Below are positions 2,428 to 53,661 of a DNA stretch of 64,000 bases, in pieces. The stretch comes from Sipunculus nudus (lineage: Eukaryota; Annelida; Sipuncula; Golfingiida; Sipunculidae): NCBI GenBank assembly GCA_026874595.1, contig CM049316.1, forward strand, positions 53,515,676-53,579,675. Reading direction: 5' to 3'. The notes under the pieces were generated by a model. That model saw only the letters and a list, made by a program, of their open reading frames with translations. It was not told the origin of the DNA and did no database searches. Made by a program: the position numbers and the translations under genes. Positions within the stretch are counted from its first letter, which is position 1, and every line of letters begins with the position of its first letter.

Positions 2428-3465
2428 AGCCCTCAGCCCTTAGGCTGATGGGCTATTGTCGTCACCCAAGCTGTCCGTCCGTCCGTCCGTCCGTCCGGCG
2501 TCCGTTAACTTTTACCTTGTGAGCGTGATATCTTGAAAAGGATTCACTGTCAGAATTTTATTTCCTCGGTAAAGATGTATATCGACAAAATCTCAGTCAA
2601 GTTCGAAGATGGGTGACCTTGACCTATTTTTCTACATTTTAGAGCTGATTATAGAAAAACACTTAGATGCTTATTACTCAGGAACCATTTGGTGGATTTT
2701 CACAAAACTTACTATGATTATTGGGACTGATAGTCTGTACCTGCTATACAAGTTTGGTGGCGCCACCTACAATTTCTGATTTTTAATGAATTTTTATCGT
2801 ATTTTTCAACTTTGGGCTTGTGAGCGGGATATCTCGAAAAGGATTCACCGTAAGAATTTTATTTTTTTGGTGATGATTGTATATTGACAAAATCTCAGTC
2901 AATTCGAAGATGGGTGACCTTGACCTATTTTTCTATGTTTAAGAGCTGATTATAGAAAAAATGTTTAGAAGCTTATTTCTCAGGAACCATTGGATGGATT
3001 TTCACAATACTTACTATGATAATAGGGACTGATGGTCTGTAACTGCTGCGCAAGTTTGGGGGTGCCACCTGCAATTTCAGATTTTATATTGAATTTTTCT
3101 TGGATTTTTCAACTTTGGCCTTGTGAGCGGGATATCTCTAAAAGGATTCACAATAGGAATTTTATTTCTTTGGTGAAGATGTATATCAACAAAAATCTCA
3201 TTCATGTTTGAAGATGGGTGACCTTGACCTACTTTTCAAGGTCACAGAGCTTATAATAGAATAAAACTTAGAAGTTTATTTTTCAGGAAGCATTTGGTGG
3301 ATTGTTATGAATCATGGTACATACCTCTCCATTTTAAATTTATAACTGAGACATGTACAGATATACATCCATGTGAGAACAGATATTTAGTACTTGTTAC
3401 TGTTACCATCTCTAAACACTGTTCTTTTGGCTGAGGGCTTTTGTCAGCTTCTGCTGATATTCTAG
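2428..3465 (+). mobile_element. Family A HINE-like transposon, copy 1 (complete)
   Basis: This is a complete non-autonomous element of about 1.04 kb. It starts with AGCCCTCAGCC after a T-run. A (GTCC)n microsatellite follows (about 2472-2497), then three tandem core units of about 301-303 bp, each beginning GTGAGCG-GATATC (2519, 2820, 3123). Near the 3' end comes the inverted copy GGCTGAGGGCT (3429-3439), then a hairpin TCAGC-TTCT-GCTGA (3444-3457) and a terminal CTAG before TT. Subterminal inverted repeat, GTCY-type microsatellite, tandem core, 3' hairpin and T/T insertion are the hallmarks of Helentron-associated elements such as bivalve pearl/CvA. It is nearly identical in architecture to the copy at 45182-46217. 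No coding capacity. Confidence 0.8.
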
Positions 3466-7727: not shown

Positions 7728-7850
7728 ACTTTGCCTTCTGTTTCTTTTAATATTACCATTACAGCTCAATTTTTTTAGTTTATTACTGTTACTATAACTA
7801 TTACATGAAAAAAGCTGTAATAGTCTATTACTATTTCTATTACTATAACC
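7728..7850 (+). repeat. (TATTAC)n-like degenerate microsatellite abutting the satellite
   Basis: Repeated ATTACTATTAC words run straight into the first satellite unit (ACTATAACCCTGCTC). Confidence 0.7.
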
Positions 7851-10800
7851 CTGCTCTGTGCTTAAATAATATCCTATTCTATGCTTACATATAACCCTGC
7901 TCTGTGCTTATATATAACCCTGCTCTGTGCTTATATATAACCCTGCTCTGTACTTATATATAACCCTGCTCTGTTCTTATATATAACCCTGCTCTGTACT
8001 CACATATAACCCTGCTCTGTGGTTATATATAACCCTGCTCTGTACTTACATATAACCCCACTCTGTGCTTATATATAACCTTGCTCTGTGCTTAAATATT
8101 ATCCTATTCTGTGCTTACATATAACCCTACTCTGTGCTTATATATAACCCTGCTTTGTACTTACATATAACCACACTCTATGCTTATATATAACCCTGCT
8201 CTGTACTTATATATAACCCTGTTCTGTACTTATAAATAACCACACTCTGTGCTTATATATAACCCTGCTCTGTACTTATATATAACCCTGCTCTGTTCTT
8301 ATATATAACCCTGCTCTGTACTCACATATAACCCTGCTCTGTGGTTATATATAACCCTGCTCTGTACTTACATATAACCCCACTCTGTGCTTATATATAA
8401 CCTTGCTCTGTGCTTAAATATTATCCTATTCTGTGCTTACATATAACCCTACTCTGTGCTTATATATAACCCTGCTTTGTACTTACATATAACCACACTA
8501 TGCTTATATATAACCCTGCTCTGTTCTTATATATAACCCTGCTCTGTACTCACATATAACCCTGCTCTGTGCTCATATATAACCCTGCTCTATACTTACA
8601 TATAACCCCACTCTGTGCTTATATATAACCTTGCTCTGTGCTTAAATATTATCCTATTCTGTGCTTACATATAACCCTACTCTGTGCTTATATATAACCC
8701 TGCTTTGTACTTACATATAACCACACTCTATGCTTATATATAACCCTGCTCTGTTCTTATATATAACCCTGCTCTGTACTCACATATAACCCTGCTCTGT
8801 GCTTATATATAACCCTGCTCTGTACTTACATATGACCACACTCTGTGCTTATATATAACCCTGCTCTGTACTTACATATAACCACAATCTGTGCTTATTT
8901 ATAATCCTGCTCTGTACTTACATATAACCCCACTCTGTGCTTATATATAACCCTACTCTGTGCTTATATATAACCATGCTCTGTACTTACATATGACCAC
9001 ACTCTGTGCTTATATTTAACCCTACTCTGTACTTACATATAACAACACTCTGTGCTTATATATAACCCTGTTCTGTACTTATATATAACCACACTCTGTG
9101 CTTATATATAACCCTGCTTTGTACTTACATATAACCACACTCTATGCTTATATATAACCCTGCTCTGTTCTTATATATAACCCTGCTCTGTACTCACATA
9201 TAACCCTGCTCTGTGCTTATATATAACCCTGCTCTGTACTTACATATGACCACAATCTGTGCTTATTTATAATCCTGCTCTGTACTTACATATAACCCCA
9301 CACTGTGCTTATATATAACCCTACTCTGTGCTTATATATAACCATGCTCTGTACTTACATATGACCACACTCTGTGCTTATATTTAACCCTACTCTGTAC
9401 TTACATATAACCACACTCTGTGCTTATATATAACCCTGTTCTGTACTTATATATAACCAGACTCTGTGCTCATATATAACCCTGCTCTGTACTCACATAT
9501 AACCCTGCTCTGTGCTTATATATAACCCTGCTCTGTACTTACATATGACCACACTCTGTGCTTATATATAACCCTACTCTGTACTTACATATAACCACAC
9601 TCTGTGCTTATATATAACCCTGTTCTGTACTTATATATAACCAGACTCTGTGCTCATATATAAGCCTGCTCTGTACTTACATATAACCACACTCTGTGCT
9701 TATTTATAATTCTGCTCTGTACTTACATATAACCACACTCTGTGCTTATATATAACCCTGTTCTGTACTTATATATAACCAGACTCTGTGCTCATATATA
9801 AGCCTGCTCTGTACTTACATATAACCACACTCTGTGCTTATTTATAATCCTGCTCTGTACTTACATATAACCACACTCTGTGCTTATATATAACCCTGTT
9901 CTGTACTTATATATAACCAGACTCTGTGCTCATATATAAGCCTGCTCTGTACTTACATATAACCACACTCTGTGCTTATTTATAATCCTGCTCTGTACTT
10001 ACATATGACCACACTCTGTGCTTATATATAACCCTGCTCTGTACTTACATATAACCACAATCTGTGCTTATTTATAATCCTGCTCTGTACTTACATATAA
10101 CCCCACACTGTGCTTATATATAACCCTACTCTGTGCTTATATATAACCATGCTCTGTACTTACATATGACCACACTCTGTGCTTATATTTAACCCTACTC
10201 TGTACTTACATATAACCACACTCTGTGCTTATATATAACCCTGTTCTGTACTTATATATAACCAGACTCTGTGCTCATATATAAGCCTGCTCTGTACTTA
10301 CATATAACCACACTCTGTGCTTATTTATAATCCTGCTCTGTACTTACATATAACCACACTCTGTGCTTATATATAACCCTGTTCTGTACTTATATATAAC
10401 CAGACTCTGTGCTTATATATAACCCTGCTCTGTACTTATATATAACCCTGCTCTGTACTCACATATAACCCTGCTCTGTGATTATATAAAACCCTGCTCT
10501 GTACTTACATATGACCACACTCTGTGCTTATATATAACCCTGCTCTGTACTTACATATAACCACACTCTGTGCTTATTTATAATCCTGCTCTGTATTTAC
10601 ATATAACCCCACTCTGTGCTTATATATAACCCTACTCTGTGCTTGTATATAACCCTGCTCTGTACTTACATATAACCACACTCTGTGCTTATATATAACC
10701 CTGTTCTGTACTTATATATAACCAGACTCTGTGCTTATATATAAGCCTGCTCTGTACTTACATATAACCACACTCTGTGCTTATATATAACCCTGTTCTG

Positions 10801-13800
10801 TACTTATATATAACCAGACTCTGTGCTTATATATAAGCCTGCTCTGTACTTACATATAACCACACTCTGTGCTTATTTATAATCCTGCTCTGTACTTACA
10901 TATAACCACACTCTGTGCTTATATATAACCCTGTTCTGTACTTATATATAACCAGACTCTGTGCTTATATATAACCCTACTCTGTACTTATATATAACCA
11001 GACTCTGTGCTTATATATAACCCTACTCTGTACTCACATATAACCCTGCTCTGTGATTATATATAACCCTACTCTGTGCTTGTATTTAACCCTGCTCTGT
11101 ACTTATATATAACCAGACTCTGTGCTTATATATAAGCCTGCTCTGTACTTACATATAACCACACTCTGTGCTTATATATAATCCTGCTCTGTACTTACAT
11201 ATAACCCCCTCTGTGCTTATATATAACCCTACTCTGTGCTTGTATTTAACCCTGCTCTGTACTTATATATAACCAGACTCTGTGCTTATATATAAGCCTG
11301 CTCTGTACTTACATATAACCACACTCTGTGCTTATATATAATCCTGCTCTGTACTTACATATAACCCCACTCTGTGCTTACATATAACCACACTCTGTGC
11401 TTATATATAACCCTGCTCTGTACTTACATATAACCACACTCTGTGCTTATTTATAATCCTGCTCTGTACTTACATATAACCCCACTCTGTGCTTATATAT
11501 AACCCTACTCTGTGCTTGTATATAACCCTGCTCTGTACTTACATATAAGCACACTCTGTGCTTATATATAACCCTACTCTGTGCTTGTATATAACCCTGC
11601 TCTGTACTTACATATAAGCACACTCTGTGCTTATATATAACCCTGTTCTGTACTTATATATAACCAGACTCTGTGCTTATATATAATCCTGCTCTGTACT
11701 TACATATAACCCCACTCTGTGCTTATATATAACCCTACTCTGTGCTTGTATATAACCCTGCTCTGTACTTACATATAACCACACTCTGTGCTTATATATA
11801 ACCCTGTTCTGTACTTATATATAACCAGACTCTGTGCTTATATATAAACCTACTCTGTACTCACATATAACCCTGCTCTGTGATTATATATAACCCTGCT
11901 CTGTACTTACATATGACCACACTCTTTGCTTATATATAACCCTGCTCTGTACTATCATATAACCACACTCTGTGCTTATATATAATCCTGCTCTGTACTT
12001 ACATATAACCCCACTCTGTGCTTATATATAACTCTACTCTGTGCTTGTATATAACCCTGCTCTGTACTTACATATAACCACACTCTGTGCTTATATATAA
12101 CCCTGTTCTGTACTTATATATAACCAGACTCTGTGCTTATATATAAGCCTGCTCTGTGCTTATATATAACCAAACTCTGTGCTTATATATAACCCTGCTT
12201 TATACTTACATATAACCCCACTCTGTGCTTACATATAACCCTACTCTGTGCTTGTATATAACCCTGCTCTGAACTTACATATAAGCACACTGTGCTTATA
12301 TATAACCCTCTTCTGTACTTATATATAACCAGACTCTGTGCTTATATATAACCTTGCTCTGTACTTACATATAACCACACTCTGTGCTTATATATAACCC
12401 TGCTCTGTACTTACATATAACCAGACTCTGTGCTTATATATAACCCTGCTCTGTACTTACATATAAGCACACTCTGTGCTTATATATAACCCTGCTCTGT
12501 ACTTACATATAACCAGACTCTGTGCTTATATATAACCCTGCTCTGTACTTACATATAACCACACTCTGTGCTTATATATAATCCTGCTCTGTACTTACAT
12601 ATAACCCCACTCTGTGCTTATATATAACCCTACTCTGTGCTTGTATATAACCCTGCTCTGTACTTACATATAACCACACTCTGTGCTTATATATAACCCT
12701 GTTCTGTACTTATATATAACCAGACTCTGTGCTTATATATAACCCTGCTCTGTACTTACATATAACCACACTCTGTGCTTATATATAATCCTGCTCTGTA
12801 CTTACATATAACCCCTCTCTGTGCTTATATATAACCCTACTCTGTGCTTGTATATAACCCTGCTCTGTACTTACATATAAGCACACTCTGTGCTTATATA
12901 TAACCCTGTTCTGTACTTATATATAACCAGACTCTGTGCTTATATATAAGCCTGCTCTGTACTTACATATAAGCACACTCTGTGCTTATATATAATTCTG
13001 CTCTGTACTTACATATAACCACACTCTGTGCTTATATATAACCCTGTTCTGTACTTATATATAACCAGACTCTGTGCTTATATATAACCCTGCTCTGTAC
13101 TTACATATAACCACACTCTGTGCTTATATATAATCCTGCTCTGTGCTTGTATATAACCCTGCTCTGTACTTACATATAAGCACACTCTGTGCTTATATAT
13201 AACCCTGTTCTGTACTTATATATAACCAGACTCTGTGCTTATTTATAATCCTGCTCTGTACTTACATATAACCCCCTCTGTGCTTATATATAACCCTACT
13301 CTGTGCTTATATATAACCCTGTTCTGTACTTACATATAACCACACTCTGTGCTTATATATAATCCTGCTCTGTACTTACATATAACCCCACTCTGTGCTT
13401 ACATATAACCACACTCTGTGCTTATATATAACCCTGCTCTGTACTTACATATAACCACACTCTGTGCTTATTTATAATCCTGCTCTGTACTTACATATAA
13501 CCCCACTCTGTGCTTATATATAACCCTACTCTGTGCTTGTATATAACCCTGCTCTGTACTTACATATAAGCACACTCTGTGCTTATATATAACCCTGTTC
13601 TGTACTTATATATAACCAGACTCTGTGCTTATATATAATCCTGCTCTGTACTTACATATAACCCCACTCTGTGCTTATATATAACCCCACTCTGTGCTTG
13701 TATATAACCCTGCTCTGTACTTACATATAACCACACTCTGTGCTTATATATAACCCTCTTCTGTACTTATATATAACCAGACTCTGTGCTTATATATAAC

Positions 13801-14060
13801 CCTGCTCTGTACTTACATATAACCCCACTCTGTGCTTATATATAACCCTGCTCTGTACTTATATATAACCCCACTCTGTGCTTATATATAACCCCACTCT
13901 GTGCTTATATATTACCCTACTCTGGGCTTATATATAAACCCACTCTGTACTTATATAACCCTAATCTGTGCTTATAAATAATCCCACTTTGTGCTTATAA
14001 ATAACCCTTCTCTGTACTTACATATAACTGTGCTTTGTGCTTACATTTTACCCTACTTTT
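7849..14060 (+). repeat. 23-bp satellite array, about 270 units, with higher-order repeats
   Basis: The 23-bp monomer reads roughly TATATAACC, a variable CTG/ACA triplet, CTCTGT, then AC or GC and TTA. It fills about 6.2 kb. Two monomer classes (CTGTACTTACATATAA and CTGTGCTTATATATAA) tend to alternate, giving a 46-bp dimer. A 138-bp hexamer repeats exactly at 9618, 9756 and 9894. A decamer repeats at 8293, 8521 and 8751 (228 and 230 bp), and a 14-mer offset (322 bp) links 7971 to 8293. Variation is mostly single-base, with occasional 2-bp losses. Stops are frequent and no coding frame crosses it. Confidence 0.95.
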
Positions 14061-38501: not shown

Positions 38502-39186
38502 TTTTTAAAACTTTCTACTATTTTTTTCAGTCCTGCTCATAAGTAACATGTGATGAACACCTGACCTACTTGACACAGTTAAATGTAGGGGCTTGCTGAC
38601 CAGAATGTTTTCCTTTAATTCTAAATTGGTACAATGCACCATCCCACCGCTGTTTCATTTTCCTTCCAGTACTAAAAGGATCCTCTCCCAGTCTAAACCA
38701 CTATCAAACTGTAACAAGGACCCTATCAAGGACCATTACCTTTAATAATACATGATTATGAACAATATACTGTCCCATTTAATTTTTTTAGCTTTAAATT
38801 ACACATCATATTCTTGCATGTGTTCATTATTAATGTTTACCATATTAATTGTTATCCCTCCTTGATATACAGCTTACTGACGACGGTTAGTCTTCAAAGT
38901 AATGGTGGTTTTCCTTCATGAATCATGCAGCTGTATTTATCATCTATACAGACAGCCTTTTTTCCTCTATCCACATCTAGGCCTTTAGACTCATCATTTT
39001 TTTCTGTTTGACACCCATAAGTTAGTGTCAGGTCCTTACAGTGAGATTAACAATATCAGTCACGTTATTGATCTTGATCACATTAGCCTAGAGCTAGAAG
39101 CTGGACTCAGCAGTTAAACATAGCACCTGGAGCAAGTCAAATCATGACTGCTTGCCCCTTACACTCAATGAAAAATATATAATTGC
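38502..39186. other. No gene recognised
   Basis: AT-rich DNA between family F and the 40-bp minisatellite. Confidence 0.5.
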
Positions 39187-40280
39187 AGTCATGTGATATG
39201 CTGTACCTATATGAGGGTGAGTGTACAGTCATGTGATACGCTGTACCTATAGGAGGGTGAGTGTACAGTCGTGTGATATGCTGTACCTGTATGAGGGTGA
39301 GTGTATAGTCATGGGATATGCTGTACCTGTATGAGGGTGAGTGTACAGTCATGTGATACACTGTACCTGTATGAGGGTGAGTGTACAGTCATGTGATATG
39401 CTGTACCTGTATGAGGGTGAGTGTACAGTCATGTGATATGCTGTACCTGTATGAGGGTGAGTGTACAGTCATGTGATACACTGTACCTATATGAGGGTGA
39501 GTGTACAGTCATGTGATATGGTGTACCTGTCTGAGGGCGATTGTACAGTCATGTGATACGCTGTACCTGTATGAGGGCGAGTGTACAGTCATGTGATACG
39601 CTGTACCTGTATGAGGGTGAGTGTACAGTCATGTGATACGCTGTACCTGTATGAGGGTGAGTGTACAGTCATGTGATACGCTGTACCTGTATGAGGGTGA
39701 GTGTACAGTCATGTGATATGCTGTACCTGTATGAGGGTGAGTGTACAGTCATGTGATACGCTGTACCTGTATGAGGGTGAGTGTACAGTCATGTGATACG
39801 CTGTACCTGTATGAGGGCAAGTGTACAGTCATGTGATATGCTGTACCTGTATGAGGGTGAGTGTACAGTCATGTGATATGCTGTACCTGTATGAGGGTGA
39901 GTGTACAGTCATGTGATACGCTGTACCTGTATGAGGGTGAGTGTACAGTCATGTGATATGCTGTACCTGTATGAGGGTGAGTGTACAGTCATGTGATACG
40001 CTGTACCTGTATGAGGGCGAGTGTACAGTCATGTGATATGCTGTACCTGTATGAGGGTGAGTGTACAGTCATGTGATACGCTGTACCTGTATGAGGGTGA
40101 GTGTACAGTCATGTGATACGCTGTACCTGTATGAGGGTGAGTGTACAGTCATGTGATATGCTGTACCTGTATGAGGGTGAGTGTACAGTCATGTGATATG
40201 CTGTACCTGTATGAGGGTGAGTGTACAGTCATGTGATACGCTGTACCTGTATGAGGGTGAGTGTACAGTCATGTGATATG
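39187..40280 (+). repeat. 40-bp minisatellite, about 27-28 units
   Basis: Units contain GTACAGTCATGTGATAYG followed by CTGTACCTGTATGAGGGTGA. Each unit holds the inverted pair GTACAG/CTGTAC around a 12-nt loop. The array is very uniform in its middle and right parts. The site after GATA varies between CG, TG and CA. The minus frame 39137-39361 is a reading of the array. Confidence 0.95.
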
Positions 40281-45181: not shown

Positions 45182-46217
45182 AGCCCTCAGCCCTTAGGCT
45201 GATGGGCTATTGTCGTCACCCAAGCTGTCCGTCCGTCCGTCCGTCCGTCCGGCATCCGTTAACTTTTACCTTGTGAGTGGGATATCTTGAAAAGGATTCA
45301 CCGTCAGAATTTTATTTCCTCGGTAAAGATGTATATCGACAAAATTTCGGTCAAGTTCGAAGATTGGTGACCTTGACCTATTTTTCTACATTTTAGAGCT
45401 GATTATAGAAAAACACTTAGATGCTAATTACTCAGGAACCATTTGGTGGATTTTCACAAAACTTACTATGATTATTGGGACTGATAATCTGTACCTGCTA
45501 CACAAGTTTGGTGGCGCCACCTACAATATCTGATTTTAAATGAATTTTTATCAGATTTTTCAACTTTGGGCTTGTGAGCGGGATATCTCTAAAAGGATTC
45601 ACCGTAGGAATTTTATTTTTTCGGTGAAGATGTATATTGACAAAATCTCGGTCAAGTTCGAAGATGGGTGACCTTGACCTATTTTTCTATGTTTTAGAGT
45701 TGATTATAGAAAAAACATTTAGAAGCTTATTTCTCAGGAACCATCGGCTGGATTTTCACAATACTTACTATGATCATAGGGAGTGATGATCTGTAACTGC
45801 TGCACAAGTTTGGGGGCGCCACCTGCAATTTCTTATTTTTAATGAATTTTTCTTGGATTTTTCAACTTTGGCCTTGTGCGCAGGATATCTCTAAAAGGAT
45901 TCACAATAGGAATTTTATTTCTTTGGTGAAGCTGTATATCGACAAAATCTCGGTCAAGTTCAAAGATGGGTGACCTTGACATACTTTTCAAGGTCACAGA
46001 GCTGATAATAGAATAAAACTTAGAAGCTTATTTTTCAGGAAGCATTTGGTGGATTTTTATGAATCATGGTACATGCCTCTCCATTTTAAATTTATAACTG
46101 AGACATGTACAGATATACATCCATGTGAGAACAGATATTTAGTACTTGTTACTGTTACCACCTCTAAACACTGTTCTTTTGGCTGAGGGCTTTTGTCAGC
46201 TTCTGCTGATATTCTAG
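45182..46217 (+). mobile_element. Family A HINE-like transposon, copy 2 (complete)
   Basis: AGCCCTCAGCC at 45182-45192, a (GTCC)n tract, three core units with GGTGGCGCCACC, GGCTGAGGGCT at 46181-46191, the hairpin TCAGC-TTCT-GCTGA and terminal CTAG before TT. Length and all landmarks agree with copy 1 to within two bases, which points to a fairly recent shared source. Confidence 0.8.
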
Positions 46218-47868: not shown

Positions 47869-47968
47869 AGTATGATGAAAGAACTTGAGACAGAGCGTGA
47901 AAGAAGATGGAAAGCGGAACAGGCAGCCAAGAAACTTGTCCAACACATCCAGCAGCTACAGACAAAGA
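47869..47968 (+). CDS. LRRCC1: LRRCC1 (CLERC) internal exon, start of the coiled coil
   Basis: LRRCC1 is a centrosome/centriole protein with N-terminal leucine-rich repeats and a long coiled coil, linked to spindle integrity and cilia. This 100-nt exon lies between acceptor TTTTGTTATAG| and donor |GTATGT and encodes 33 residues plus one base. It includes ELETERERRWKAEQAAKKL, which fits the vertebrate LRRCC1 segment where the coiled coil begins (pattern ER-x-RW-[KR]-AEQA-x2-KL). The leftover A joins GC of the next exon to make a serine codon, giving an uninterrupted frame across both exons. Heptad-like spacing of L/I and absence of Pro/Gly support a coiled coil. The LRR exons were not found upstream. 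The family call rests on recalled alignment, not a search. Confidence 0.75.
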
Positions 47969-50250
47969 GTATGTACATCTATACAATCTCCAGACAAAGA
48001 GTATGTACATCTATACTAATTCCAGACAAAGAGTATGTACATCTATACTAACACCAGACAAAGAGTATGTACATCTATACTAACTGGAGACAAAGAGTAT
48101 GTACATCTATACTAACACCAGAAAAAGAGTATGTACATCTATACTAACTCCAGACAAGGAGTATGTACATCTATACTAACTGGAGACAAAGAGTATGTAC
48201 ATCTATACTAACACCAGACAAAGAGTATGTACATCTATACTAACACCAGACAAAGAGTATGTACATCTATACTAACTCCAGACAAAGAGTATGTACATCT
48301 ATACTAACTGAAGACATAGAGTATGTACATCTATACTAACTCCAGACAAAGAGTATGTACATCTATACTAACTCCAGACAAAGAGTATGTACATCTATAC
48401 TAACACCAGACAAAGAGTATGTACATCTATACTAACTCCAGACAAAGAGTATGTACATCTATACTAACTCCAGACAAAGAGTATGTACATCTATACTAAC
48501 TCCAGACAAAGAGTATGTACATCTATACTAACTCCAGACAAAGAGTATGTACATCTATACTAACTCCAGAGAAAGAGTATGTACATCTATACTAACTCCA
48601 GACAAAGAGTATGTACATCTATACTAACTCCAGACAAAGAGTATGTACATCTATACTAACTCCAGACAAAGAGTATGTACATCTATACTAACTCCAGACA
48701 AAGAGTATGTACATCTATACTAACTGAAGACATAGAGTATGTACATCTATACTAACTCCAGACAAAGAGTATGTACATCTATACTAACACCAGACAAAGA
48801 GTATGTACAACTATACTAACTGAAGACATAGAGTATGTACATCTATACTAACTCCAGACAAAGAGTATGTACATCTATACTAACTCCAGATGAAGAGTAT
48901 GTACATCTATACTAACTGAAGACATAGAGTATGTACATCTATACTTACTGAAGACATAGAGTATGTACATCTATACTAACTCAAGACAAAGAGTATGTAC
49001 ATCTATACTAACTCCAGACAAAGAGTATGTACATCTATACTAACACCAGACAAAGAGTATGTACAACTATACTACCTGAAGACATAGAGTATGTACATCT
49101 ATACTAACTCCAGACAAAGAGTATGTACATCTATACTAACTCCAGACAAAGAGTATTTACATCTATACTAACTCCAGACAAAGAGTATGTACATCTATAC
49201 TAACTCCAGACAAAGAGTATAAGCATCTATACTAACTGAAGACATAGAGTATGTACATCTATACTAACTCCAGACAAAGAGTATGTACATCTATACTAAC
49301 TCCAGACAAAGAGTATGTACATCTATACTAACTCCAGACAAAGAGTATGTACATCTATACTAACTCCAGACAAAGAGTATGTACATCTATACTAACTGAA
49401 GACATAGAGTATGTACATCTATACTAACTCCAGACAAAGAGTATGTACATCTATACTAACACCAGACAAAGAGTATGTACAACTATACTAACTGAAGACA
49501 TAGAGTATGTACATCTATACTAACTCCAGACAAAGAGTATGTACATCTATACTAACTCCAGATGAAGAGTATGTACATCTATACTAACTGAAGACATAGA
49601 GTATGTACATCTATACTTACTGAAGACATAGAGTATGTACATCTATACTAACTCAAGACAAAGAGTATGTACATCTATACTAACTCCAGACAAAGAGTAT
49701 GTACATCTATACTAACACCAGACAAAGAGTATGTACAACTATACTAACTGAAGACATAGAGTATGTACATCTATACTAACTCCAGACAAAGAGTATGTAC
49801 ATCTATACTAACTCCAGACAAAGAGTATGTACATCTATACTAACTGAAGACATAGAGTATGTACATCTATACTTACTGAAGACATAGAGTATGTACATCT
49901 ATACTAACTCCAGACATAGAGTATGTACATCTATACTAACTCCAGACAAAGAGTATGTACATCTATACTAACTCCAGACAAAGAGTATGTACATCTGTAC
50001 ACACTTCAGACAAAGAGTATGTACATCTATACTTACTGAAGACATAGAGTATGTACATCTATACTAACTCCAGACATAGAGTATGTACATCTATACTAAC
50101 TCCAGACATAGAGTATGTACATCTATACTAACTTCAGACAAAGATTATGTACATCTATACTTACTCCAGACAAAGAGTATGTACATCTATACTAACTGGA
50201 GACAAAGAGTATGTACATGTTTACTAACTCCAGAGATAAAGTATGTTTGT
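47959..50250 (+). repeat. 32-bp minisatellite built from the LRRCC1 exon/intron junction, about 71 units
   Basis: The first unit overlaps the last ten exon bases (CAGACAAAGA) and the first intron bases (GTATGTACATCTATAC). The array then continues at a 32-bp period. Nearly every unit therefore repeats a 5' splice site (GTATGT), a TACTAAC branch-point-like word and a CCAG. A common variant has GAAGACATAGAG in place of CCAGACAAAGAG. The unit is not a multiple of three and one frame holds TAA, so the array is non-coding. The + frame at 50083-50301 is a shadow. Confidence 0.95.
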
Positions 50251-51914
50251 CTATTCTCAACAAAAACAAGAAATGTCAGTTCAAATCTTTATCATTATTA
50301 ATTTAACTTTCAAAAGAATCCATTTGTCAGTATGTATGCTCTCCTTCTCTCTATTTATTTATTTATTAGGTTTCCAATATTCAGGAATTTCCTTTGAGAA
50401 ACATTTAAAAGCTGTATCATTTATTATTTCTCTTTCAGTTTGCATTGAAAAAAAATGAATTATAACAAAACTGAATAAAAAAAAGTCATGAAGATAAATG
50501 GTCTGTTTCTGTATGTGTGGTAGACATTTCATCAGCCTGACCATCAGAGCTGCGTACATTTCTCAACTGATTTGGTTATGATCAAATAACTTTGTCTCCT
50601 GGTGCTGGCTTGCTGACTGAACAATCAGGCAGTCTTGACACCTCCTATTGTAAGTTATAGCCACAGTCATCTCAAGCAACACTTCATATCCACTTGAAAC
50701 CAGGTGAAACTCCTGTTCTACCTTGGTCTGTAATTGAACACACACACCTTCCACAATATTGAATCATGCAACCAGACCACACACAGCTTAATCGGTTTGA
50801 CTTGCTGCAGGTTTCCTTTCCGTGTTTCACAGAATGCTAAAGATTTAAACCTTTGATGTCTGGTTTGAGTATGTCAACTCTTTCTGCCATATTCATCTCC
50901 TGACAGACTGATCACTTTGCTGGTACATGTTGTTAGTAGTAGGCCCAGTTATTGATGTATATGTGATATTGACAGCAACTGTCTGCTTATCGTTTGGAGA
51001 TGACATATTAACAGGAAATGTTAGGTTGTTTTGGGGACCATTTCGTCACTTTTCACTACCTACTTCTCTTTCCATTTTCATCATGGTCTTTTTTGTATTA
51101 AAATCCAGGGATTTGATGAGGCTCTTATGCCATGATGCACATTGTGTCTTGATGTATAATATATGGCATTATTGCACGCAACTTAAATTTACACATTAAT
51201 TCCAGTTGATTTCAGATATGCACTGATAAATCAGATCTTTACAGATATTGATTTATCTGAAGCAAGTAAATGGCTTTGGGCAGTAATTGCTCATTTGTGA
51301 GCTAATTACCTTATAATAACTGTATCACATTAGGTTGCACCTGACAAGGTCATTTTGACATGCAGGTCAGTGCTAGATTATAATACTGTATTTAATCGTT
51401 TACTGAGGACAGTATGGCAATGCGACTGGTAATGATGTCCATTGATGATCAGTCTGTCAATCAACTAGGACCATTAGCCCTTTATCTGTTGTCCAGTTAC
51501 TGGCCAGTCATGTGTTAACAAGGCACATTTTGTCAGCCTGCCATTGCATGCATACATAATGATTTAGTCGCCAGCCTTATATACCATAATACTTTCTCAT
51601 CTGTCATGTAAAATTGGTGTAAGATTACTTTTAAGAAGAGATGGCCAAAATTTTAATTTCCTACTGAAATGAGAAAAGCTTTTGGCATAGTTTGACATGA
51701 TTCTTATTTTTGGAACAGTTTCATAAACAGTTTTGAGACTTACATGTAGTACAAATGTGACAGTTTGAGCTCAGTCACACCTTCATCTAAGCCTCATGCC
51801 AAATGTGTCATTTGTTTCTTTTCTTCCCCTTATTTTTTGCCCTTGTCCTCAAGTTGTCTAATCTCAGGAGTTTTTATCTGTGTTATTCCTCTCCAGCCCT
51901 CTAACGGTCTTTCT
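50251..51914 (+). other. LRRCC1 intron interior, no feature recognised
   Basis: AT-rich intronic sequence. Frames at 50243-50458, 50359-50559 (-), 50563-50754 (-) and 50927-51199 show no coding evidence. Confidence 0.5.
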
Positions 51915-53542: not shown

Positions 53543-53661
53543 GCCAAGAGGATCAGGGTGTCCAACAAGTGGCACTGCAAGCAACATCAAGACTCAAACA
53601 AGCACTGACCAATGAAAGAGAAGCAAAACTGAAGCTGCAGGCTGAGCTTGAACTCTCACAG
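53543..53661 (+). CDS. LRRCC1: LRRCC1 (CLERC) internal exon, coiled coil continued
   Basis: This 119-nt exon runs from acceptor TTAATTTACTTAG| to donor CACAG|GTCAGT. Read in the phase set by the upstream exon it encodes SQEDQGVQQVALQATSRLKQ and then ALTNEREAKLKLQAELELSQ, all open and ending in phase 0. The pattern AL-x2-T-x-RLK-x5-ER-x2-K-x2-L fits the LRRCC1 region directly after the ER-x-RW block. Residues are charged and Leu-rich in coiled-coil spacing, and would belong to the centrosomal rod. The longer open frame to 54036 only runs into the intron. No further LRRCC1 exon was found up to the end of the window, so the next intron is probably over 10 kb. The donor-site frame and exon pairing are strong; the family name is a recalled match. 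Confidence 0.75.

Follow-up and report, generated by a model that had tools for sequence, protein, structure and literature searches.

A 32-bp minisatellite of 71 units begins within a coding exon of a gene that appears to be an LRRCC1 orthologue, extends across the 5' splice site of that exon, and repeats this splice site in almost all of its units. We consider that the array is probably a passive, tolerated minisatellite that was born from the exon/intron junction, and that the first copy of the donor is mostly used, with slight leakage to the following copies. The array lies in a stretch of 64,000 nucleotides, here called the window. Positions are those of the window, and those called window-scale continue the same count beyond its ends. 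The main features are as follows.

47869–47968, + strand: exon A of the LRRCC1-like gene, 100 bp, coiled-coil-like, ending in phase 1; open frame SMMKELETERERRWKAEQAAKKLVQHIQQLQTK, acceptor ...TTGTTATAG, donor A/GTATGT.
47959–50230, + strand: 32-bp minisatellite, 71 units in perfect register; consensus CAGACAAAGAGTATGTACATCTATACTAACTC.
47969–47974, + strand: inferred true donor GTATGT (unit 1); U1 pairing score −4.6 kcal/mol.
47991–50230, + strand: the 70 decoy-donor units downstream of unit 1; GTATGT is in register in 68 of the 71 units, unit 1 counted.
50231–50262, + strand: degenerate 72nd unit with 11 differences from the consensus, GTATGT retained.
53543–53661, + strand: exon B, the next exon, 119 bp; acceptor ...TTTACTTAG, donor CAG/GTCAGT.

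The reading frame and the splice edges show that exon A is a real exon. The preliminary description placed the start of the array inside an exon, and this was borne out: exon A ends with CAGACAAAGA, a GT follows at 47969–47970, and the acceptor in front of 53543 is compatible with phase 1. The last 10 bases of the exon are also the first 10 bases of repeat unit 1. When the one codon base left by exon A was joined with the other two from exon B, the product read QTK-S-QEDQG in a frame without a stop. Two further coiled-coil exons with visible splice edges are found downstream, beyond the window.

The name LRRCC1, which had also been proposed earlier, agrees with collinear downstream matches. 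As the query, we used what we take to be a 399-residue C-terminal part of the human protein, and tblastn returned 10 collinear same-strand matches with 44–75% identity at window-scale 101957–138880. Nine of these had E values of 8e-4 or better, and the remaining one had an E value of 0.44 (25.8 bits; the best of 10 shuffled queries reached 25.0). The first match falls in the fifth exon, and the identification as an LRRCC1 orthologue is supported by the matches from that exon onward, not by exons A to D. A simple motif screen of the ~98 kb upstream recognised no leucine-rich-repeat exons, and a composition screen upstream of exon A gave no convincing exon. In searches for the identity of the gene, Pfam yielded one sub-threshold match only (E 0.082) and the PDB yielded 0 matches.

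We then describe the anatomy of the array. Tandem Repeats Finder reported a period of 32 and 71.5 copies at 47959–50246. When the array was cut in register (47959–50230), all 71 units were exactly 32 bp long and arranged head-to-tail with zero indels, and each differed from the consensus at 0–4 positions. The preliminary description had thus given the correct start, but the in-register part ends at 50230, not at 50250. It had also stated that almost every unit carries GTATGT, as the in-register count confirms, and that most units carry a perfect TACTAAC branch-point word. The latter is true of 62 of the 71 units (60 have both words), but the perfect word is missing from the two units nearest exon A, which read TACAATC (unit 1) and TACTAAT (unit 2). 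The presence of TACTAAC inside a repeat unit is unusual; outside the array, the word was found five times on the + strand of 161.6 kb. CCAGAC occurs 44 times and ACATAGAGTATGT 18 times in 47959–50250. A search for the 18-mer around the donor (≤ 2 mismatches) gave 70 hits, whereas 100 shuffles gave 0.03 on average, so chance is excluded. The array comprises 23 distinct unit types, and the 14-unit block of units 21–34 recurs exactly as units 42–55, which is a sign of block duplication. Of the 32 bases just before the array, 13 agree with the consensus.

When a three-unit probe was compared with the 1.43-Gb genome in a search that scored the best candidates, at least 32 matches were obtained, and all 32 of those listed fell inside the array. 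Because the unit was seen only at its own locus among these matches, the array probably arose in place, and a dispersed satellite or a transposon-borne repeat was rejected within the limits of this search. In the one assembly examined, a second allele or paralogue was similarly rejected: exon A together with its upstream intron matches itself only, and the peptide of A joined to B has no match beyond its own two exons. We infer that the seed spanned 32 bp over the junction between exon A and the intron of the LRRCC1 orthologue, and that it would have been duplicated and would have grown to 71 units through slippage and block duplication. Nearly every unit would carry the gene's own donor because the seed lay on the junction.

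The donor of exon A is weak. By pairing with the 5' end of U1, it is the weakest of the 13 donors inferred in the gene, the other twelve scoring −5.6 to −12.6 kcal/mol; this comparison is biased toward strong scores because eight of the twelve were chosen as the best-scoring GT near the end of a match. The four donors placed by splice edges (exons B to E) scored −6.6 to −9.4 kcal/mol, and ∼13% of 3,510 background GT sites scored at least as well as the exon A donor. At 66 of the 71 downstream unit positions, the sequence from −3 to +8 is identical to that of the true donor. As the first donor is the weakest of the 13, the decoys may compete better than assumed. In the preliminary description, the true donor was said to compete with about 70 near-identical decoys; the anatomical part of this statement stands, in that the array includes the real donor and its near-identical copies, whereas the competition itself is a prediction. 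The delayed splicing, intron retention and length-dependent isoforms suggested alongside it are likewise predictions.

The outcome of using a decoy can be read from the sequence. A GT is present at 70 of the 71 downstream unit positions and missing at one. When each of these 70 decoys was spliced to exon B in silico, none of the 70 products stayed open to the exon B end; in 68 products, translation ended at one and the same stop, located 80 nt into the intron. This stop lies within unit 3, which agrees with the earlier statement that a TAA is met on reading into the intron. Decoy use should therefore only lower the output of the gene, unless truncated proteins matter. Furthermore, the variant ACATAGA would read ACA TAG, a stop, in the frame of unit 1, so its gene conversion into unit 1 would be expected to truncate the protein.

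The idea of a splice-site minisatellite is not new, as two human genes have one. The human IFI6 (6-16/G1P3) minisatellite was reportedly described by Turri and colleagues in 1995. Its repeat unit is shorter than the present one, and extra copies can stay in frame, whereas the decoys with a GT described here all lead to a stop. In IFI6, two downstream repeat units act as donors and give rise to three mRNA species (PMC4526556). The intron 18 VNTR of human ABCA7 has a 25-bp unit that opens with the GT of the exon 18 donor; it is polymorphic, with 12 to ∼427 units, and its effects have been tested at the RNA level. Retention of one unit causes a frameshift and amounts to 2 ± 1% in the tissues studied, independently of array length, whereas skipping of exon 19 rises with VNTR length (PMC5954066). 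The present array resembles that of ABCA7 in that it starts at the exon's own donor and in that splicing from the second unit would retain one unit and cause a frameshift; it differs in that its unit is 32 bp long with 10 coding bases and TACTAAC. Because it starts across a real exon's donor and repeats that donor in its units, it belongs to the ABCA7/IFI6 kind by anatomy. The features that set it apart from the human cases are its host, taken for an invertebrate, the low strength of its donor, and the presence of both coding bases and TACTAAC within the unit.

Two other cases offer looser likenesses. In human TERT, the intron 6 VNTR is also an intronic tandem repeat and alters splicing by pairing with the pre-mRNA (PMC3948165). 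The CeRep25B minisatellite of Caenorhabditis elegans is an invertebrate minisatellite linked to alternative splicing; it is enriched close to regions of alternative splicing in many genes, but is not reported there as a copy of one gene's donor (PMC4039745). In our literature search, which covered titles and abstract openings and lay mostly outside subscription papers, no account of this locus came to our notice, nor any of an invertebrate minisatellite that spans a donor.

Under the preferred reading of a passive array, the first copy, which adjoins the coding exon and is transcribed first, would serve most transcripts. A few percent or less would use a donor just downstream, with a frameshift and removal by nonsense-mediated decay as the outcome, and longer arrays may reduce output or raise the skipping of exon B. 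The low one-unit retention of about 2% in ABCA7 (PMC5954066) is consistent with this reading by analogy. The indel-free units with their block duplication, the locus seen nowhere else, the stops reached from the decoys, the similar numbers of variant types per column and the rarity of arrays at exon edges, described below, also agree with it. Four observations speak against it: the lower raw counts of variant cells in the donor and TACTAAC columns, the weakness of the first donor, a predicted accessibility that does not single out unit 1, and the scarcity of TACTAAC outside the array. Which donor is used, whether the products decay, and how array length acts are thus expectations that follow from the anatomy. 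The locus forms a natural experiment, in which one donor is present in 68 in-register copies, with identity from −3 to +8 at the downstream positions counted above, and the copy that is actually used would reveal whether donor choice is decided by the order of synthesis, the exon context or the RNA structure. It also suggests that junction-born minisatellites, known from two human genes, are present in other animals with minisatellite-rich introns.

A second reading, which we regard as unlikely, is that the array is a length-tuned attenuator. In this case, the ∼70 decoys would compete for U1, a share of the transcripts would be diverted into frameshifted, decaying products or into skipping of exon B, and the length of the array would set the dose of LRRCC1. 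The identity of the decoys to the true donor, the weakness of that donor and the stop reached from all 70 decoys with a GT are all in keeping with such a role. In ABCA7, moreover, a longer array goes with lower expression and more skipping of the next exon, although the length-independent one-unit retention found there points the other way (PMC5954066). Variant cells are also few in the donor columns (4 of 426), compared with 11 of 497 in TACTAAC, 45 of 710 in the exonic columns and 37 of 639 in the other columns. However, the donor does not stand out within the unit: of the 32 circular windows six columns wide, 9 are as invariant or more so (10 if each of the 23 distinct units is counted once), and of the 32 windows seven columns wide, 16 are at least as invariant as TACTAAC. 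The numbers of distinct variant types per column are also similar, namely 0.67 for the donor (4 types in 6 columns), 0.86 for TACTAAC (6 in 7), 0.80 for the exonic columns and 0.89 for the others, and the excess variation elsewhere is mostly due to a few variants in columns 1, 7, 31, and 32 that were spread by duplication. Selection on the splice motifs is therefore not supported, as they are not exceptionally conserved within the unit, although on the raw counts a weak constraint may act on them. A more elaborate version, to which we give little credence, is a length-tunable poison-donor device, in which the weak true donor heads ∼70 mutually masking decoys, and array length together with transcription speed sets the productive splicing of this centriole gene.

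Masking on its own seems very unlikely. Here, the 8-nt palindrome ATGTACAT, which occupies unit positions 13–20 and overlaps each donor, would allow units to pair with one another in the pre-mRNA and so hide the decoys, while U1 would catch the first donor before its partner was made. In RNA folding of an idealised tandem consensus, the units were predicted to pair through this palindrome and so to close off the donors; the predicted accessibility of the donor was 0.0010, a value reached by 10 of 1,000 shuffled units that kept GTATGT, and the 51 GTATGT words outside the array had a median of 0.094. The start of the array also folds better than its shuffles (z = −1.93; 1 of 100 as good). However, this test was picked after the sequence had been inspected, the duplex between two units has an unremarkable energy, with 23% of shuffles doing as well, and the exon B donor is predicted to be equally buried (0.002). 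The predicted accessibility of unit 1 (0.009) does not set it apart from the other units (mean 0.007), and an RNA structure that frees the first donor was rejected, as unit 1 ranks 12th or 33rd of 72 depending on the settings.

It is still more doubtful that the number of repeats or the block structure is partly an artefact of assembly. Tandem arrays are prone to collapse and expansion, and a wrong join could account for the exact 14-unit block. However, the window contains zero N letters, the array carries different variants at its start, in its middle and at its end, and the overlap of exon and donor is independent of copy number.

The least credible reading, which we consider highly improbable, is that adjacent units act as 7-nt microexons or as a splicing ratchet that yields a series of isoforms: ACAAAGA is flanked by AG and GT, GTATGT and TACTAAC occur together in most units, and in 39 of the 70 units the stretch before the repeat AG has a pyrimidine content of 0.65, the value also seen at the exon A acceptor, but a content of ≥ 0.6 is found at 35% of 3,208 background CAG sites, and a 7-nt insertion shifts the frame. 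The acceptors of exons B, C, and E have a content of 0.75, above that of the repeat AGs. In the consensus, AGs follow the branch A of each TACTAAC at 6, 12, 14 and 38 nt, so the CCAG one unit further on is too close, and the CCAG after it has two nearer AGs in front of it. A 7-nt exon also leaves little room for exon definition. The microexons raised in the preliminary description are thus unlikely on these spacings. A search of 47959–50250 found 0 AGGT, and recursive splice sites or intron gain by AGGT duplication were ruled out on this basis.

Tandem arrays are common around the gene. Those with a period of ≥ 8 cover 51,309 of the 214,000 bp examined. Of the 28 edges of 14 exon intervals, one is touched by an array, namely the donor edge of exon A; the nine intervals after exon E end where the matches end, so these edges are approximate. 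By simple arithmetic, random placement at the same coverage would touch ∼6.7 edges. Arrays are thus frequent but mostly keep clear of exon edges, and one surviving overlap is not surprising.

Besides the main array, two arrays in or near the gene contain donor-like words. In the first, a 40-bp array of 27 copies at 39186–40278, GAGGGTGAGT occurs 23 times with AGG/GTGAGT, which scores −12.0 kcal/mol and is far stronger than the exon A donor; no exon was recognised beside this array. In the second, at window-scale 91196–92672, GCA/GTAAGT occurs 14 times (−7.2 to −7.5 kcal/mol). A 52-bp array of ∼111 copies at window-scale 109799–115557 ends 187 bp before an LRRCC1 exon match, near its acceptor side. 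In addition, a 46-bp array at 7844–14057 consists of ∼135 copies of TATAACCCTACTCTGTGCTTATA pairs. The 302-bp-period arrays at 2507–3303 and 45261–46057 are similar to each other, each is preceded by GTCC repeats, and they probably belong to one dispersed repeat family. Finally, a 36-bp array of ∼134 copies at window-scale −39281 to −34469 has long open stretches that read EIEKVDRDMTVI, and could be either coding or a mere repeat in a multiple of three.
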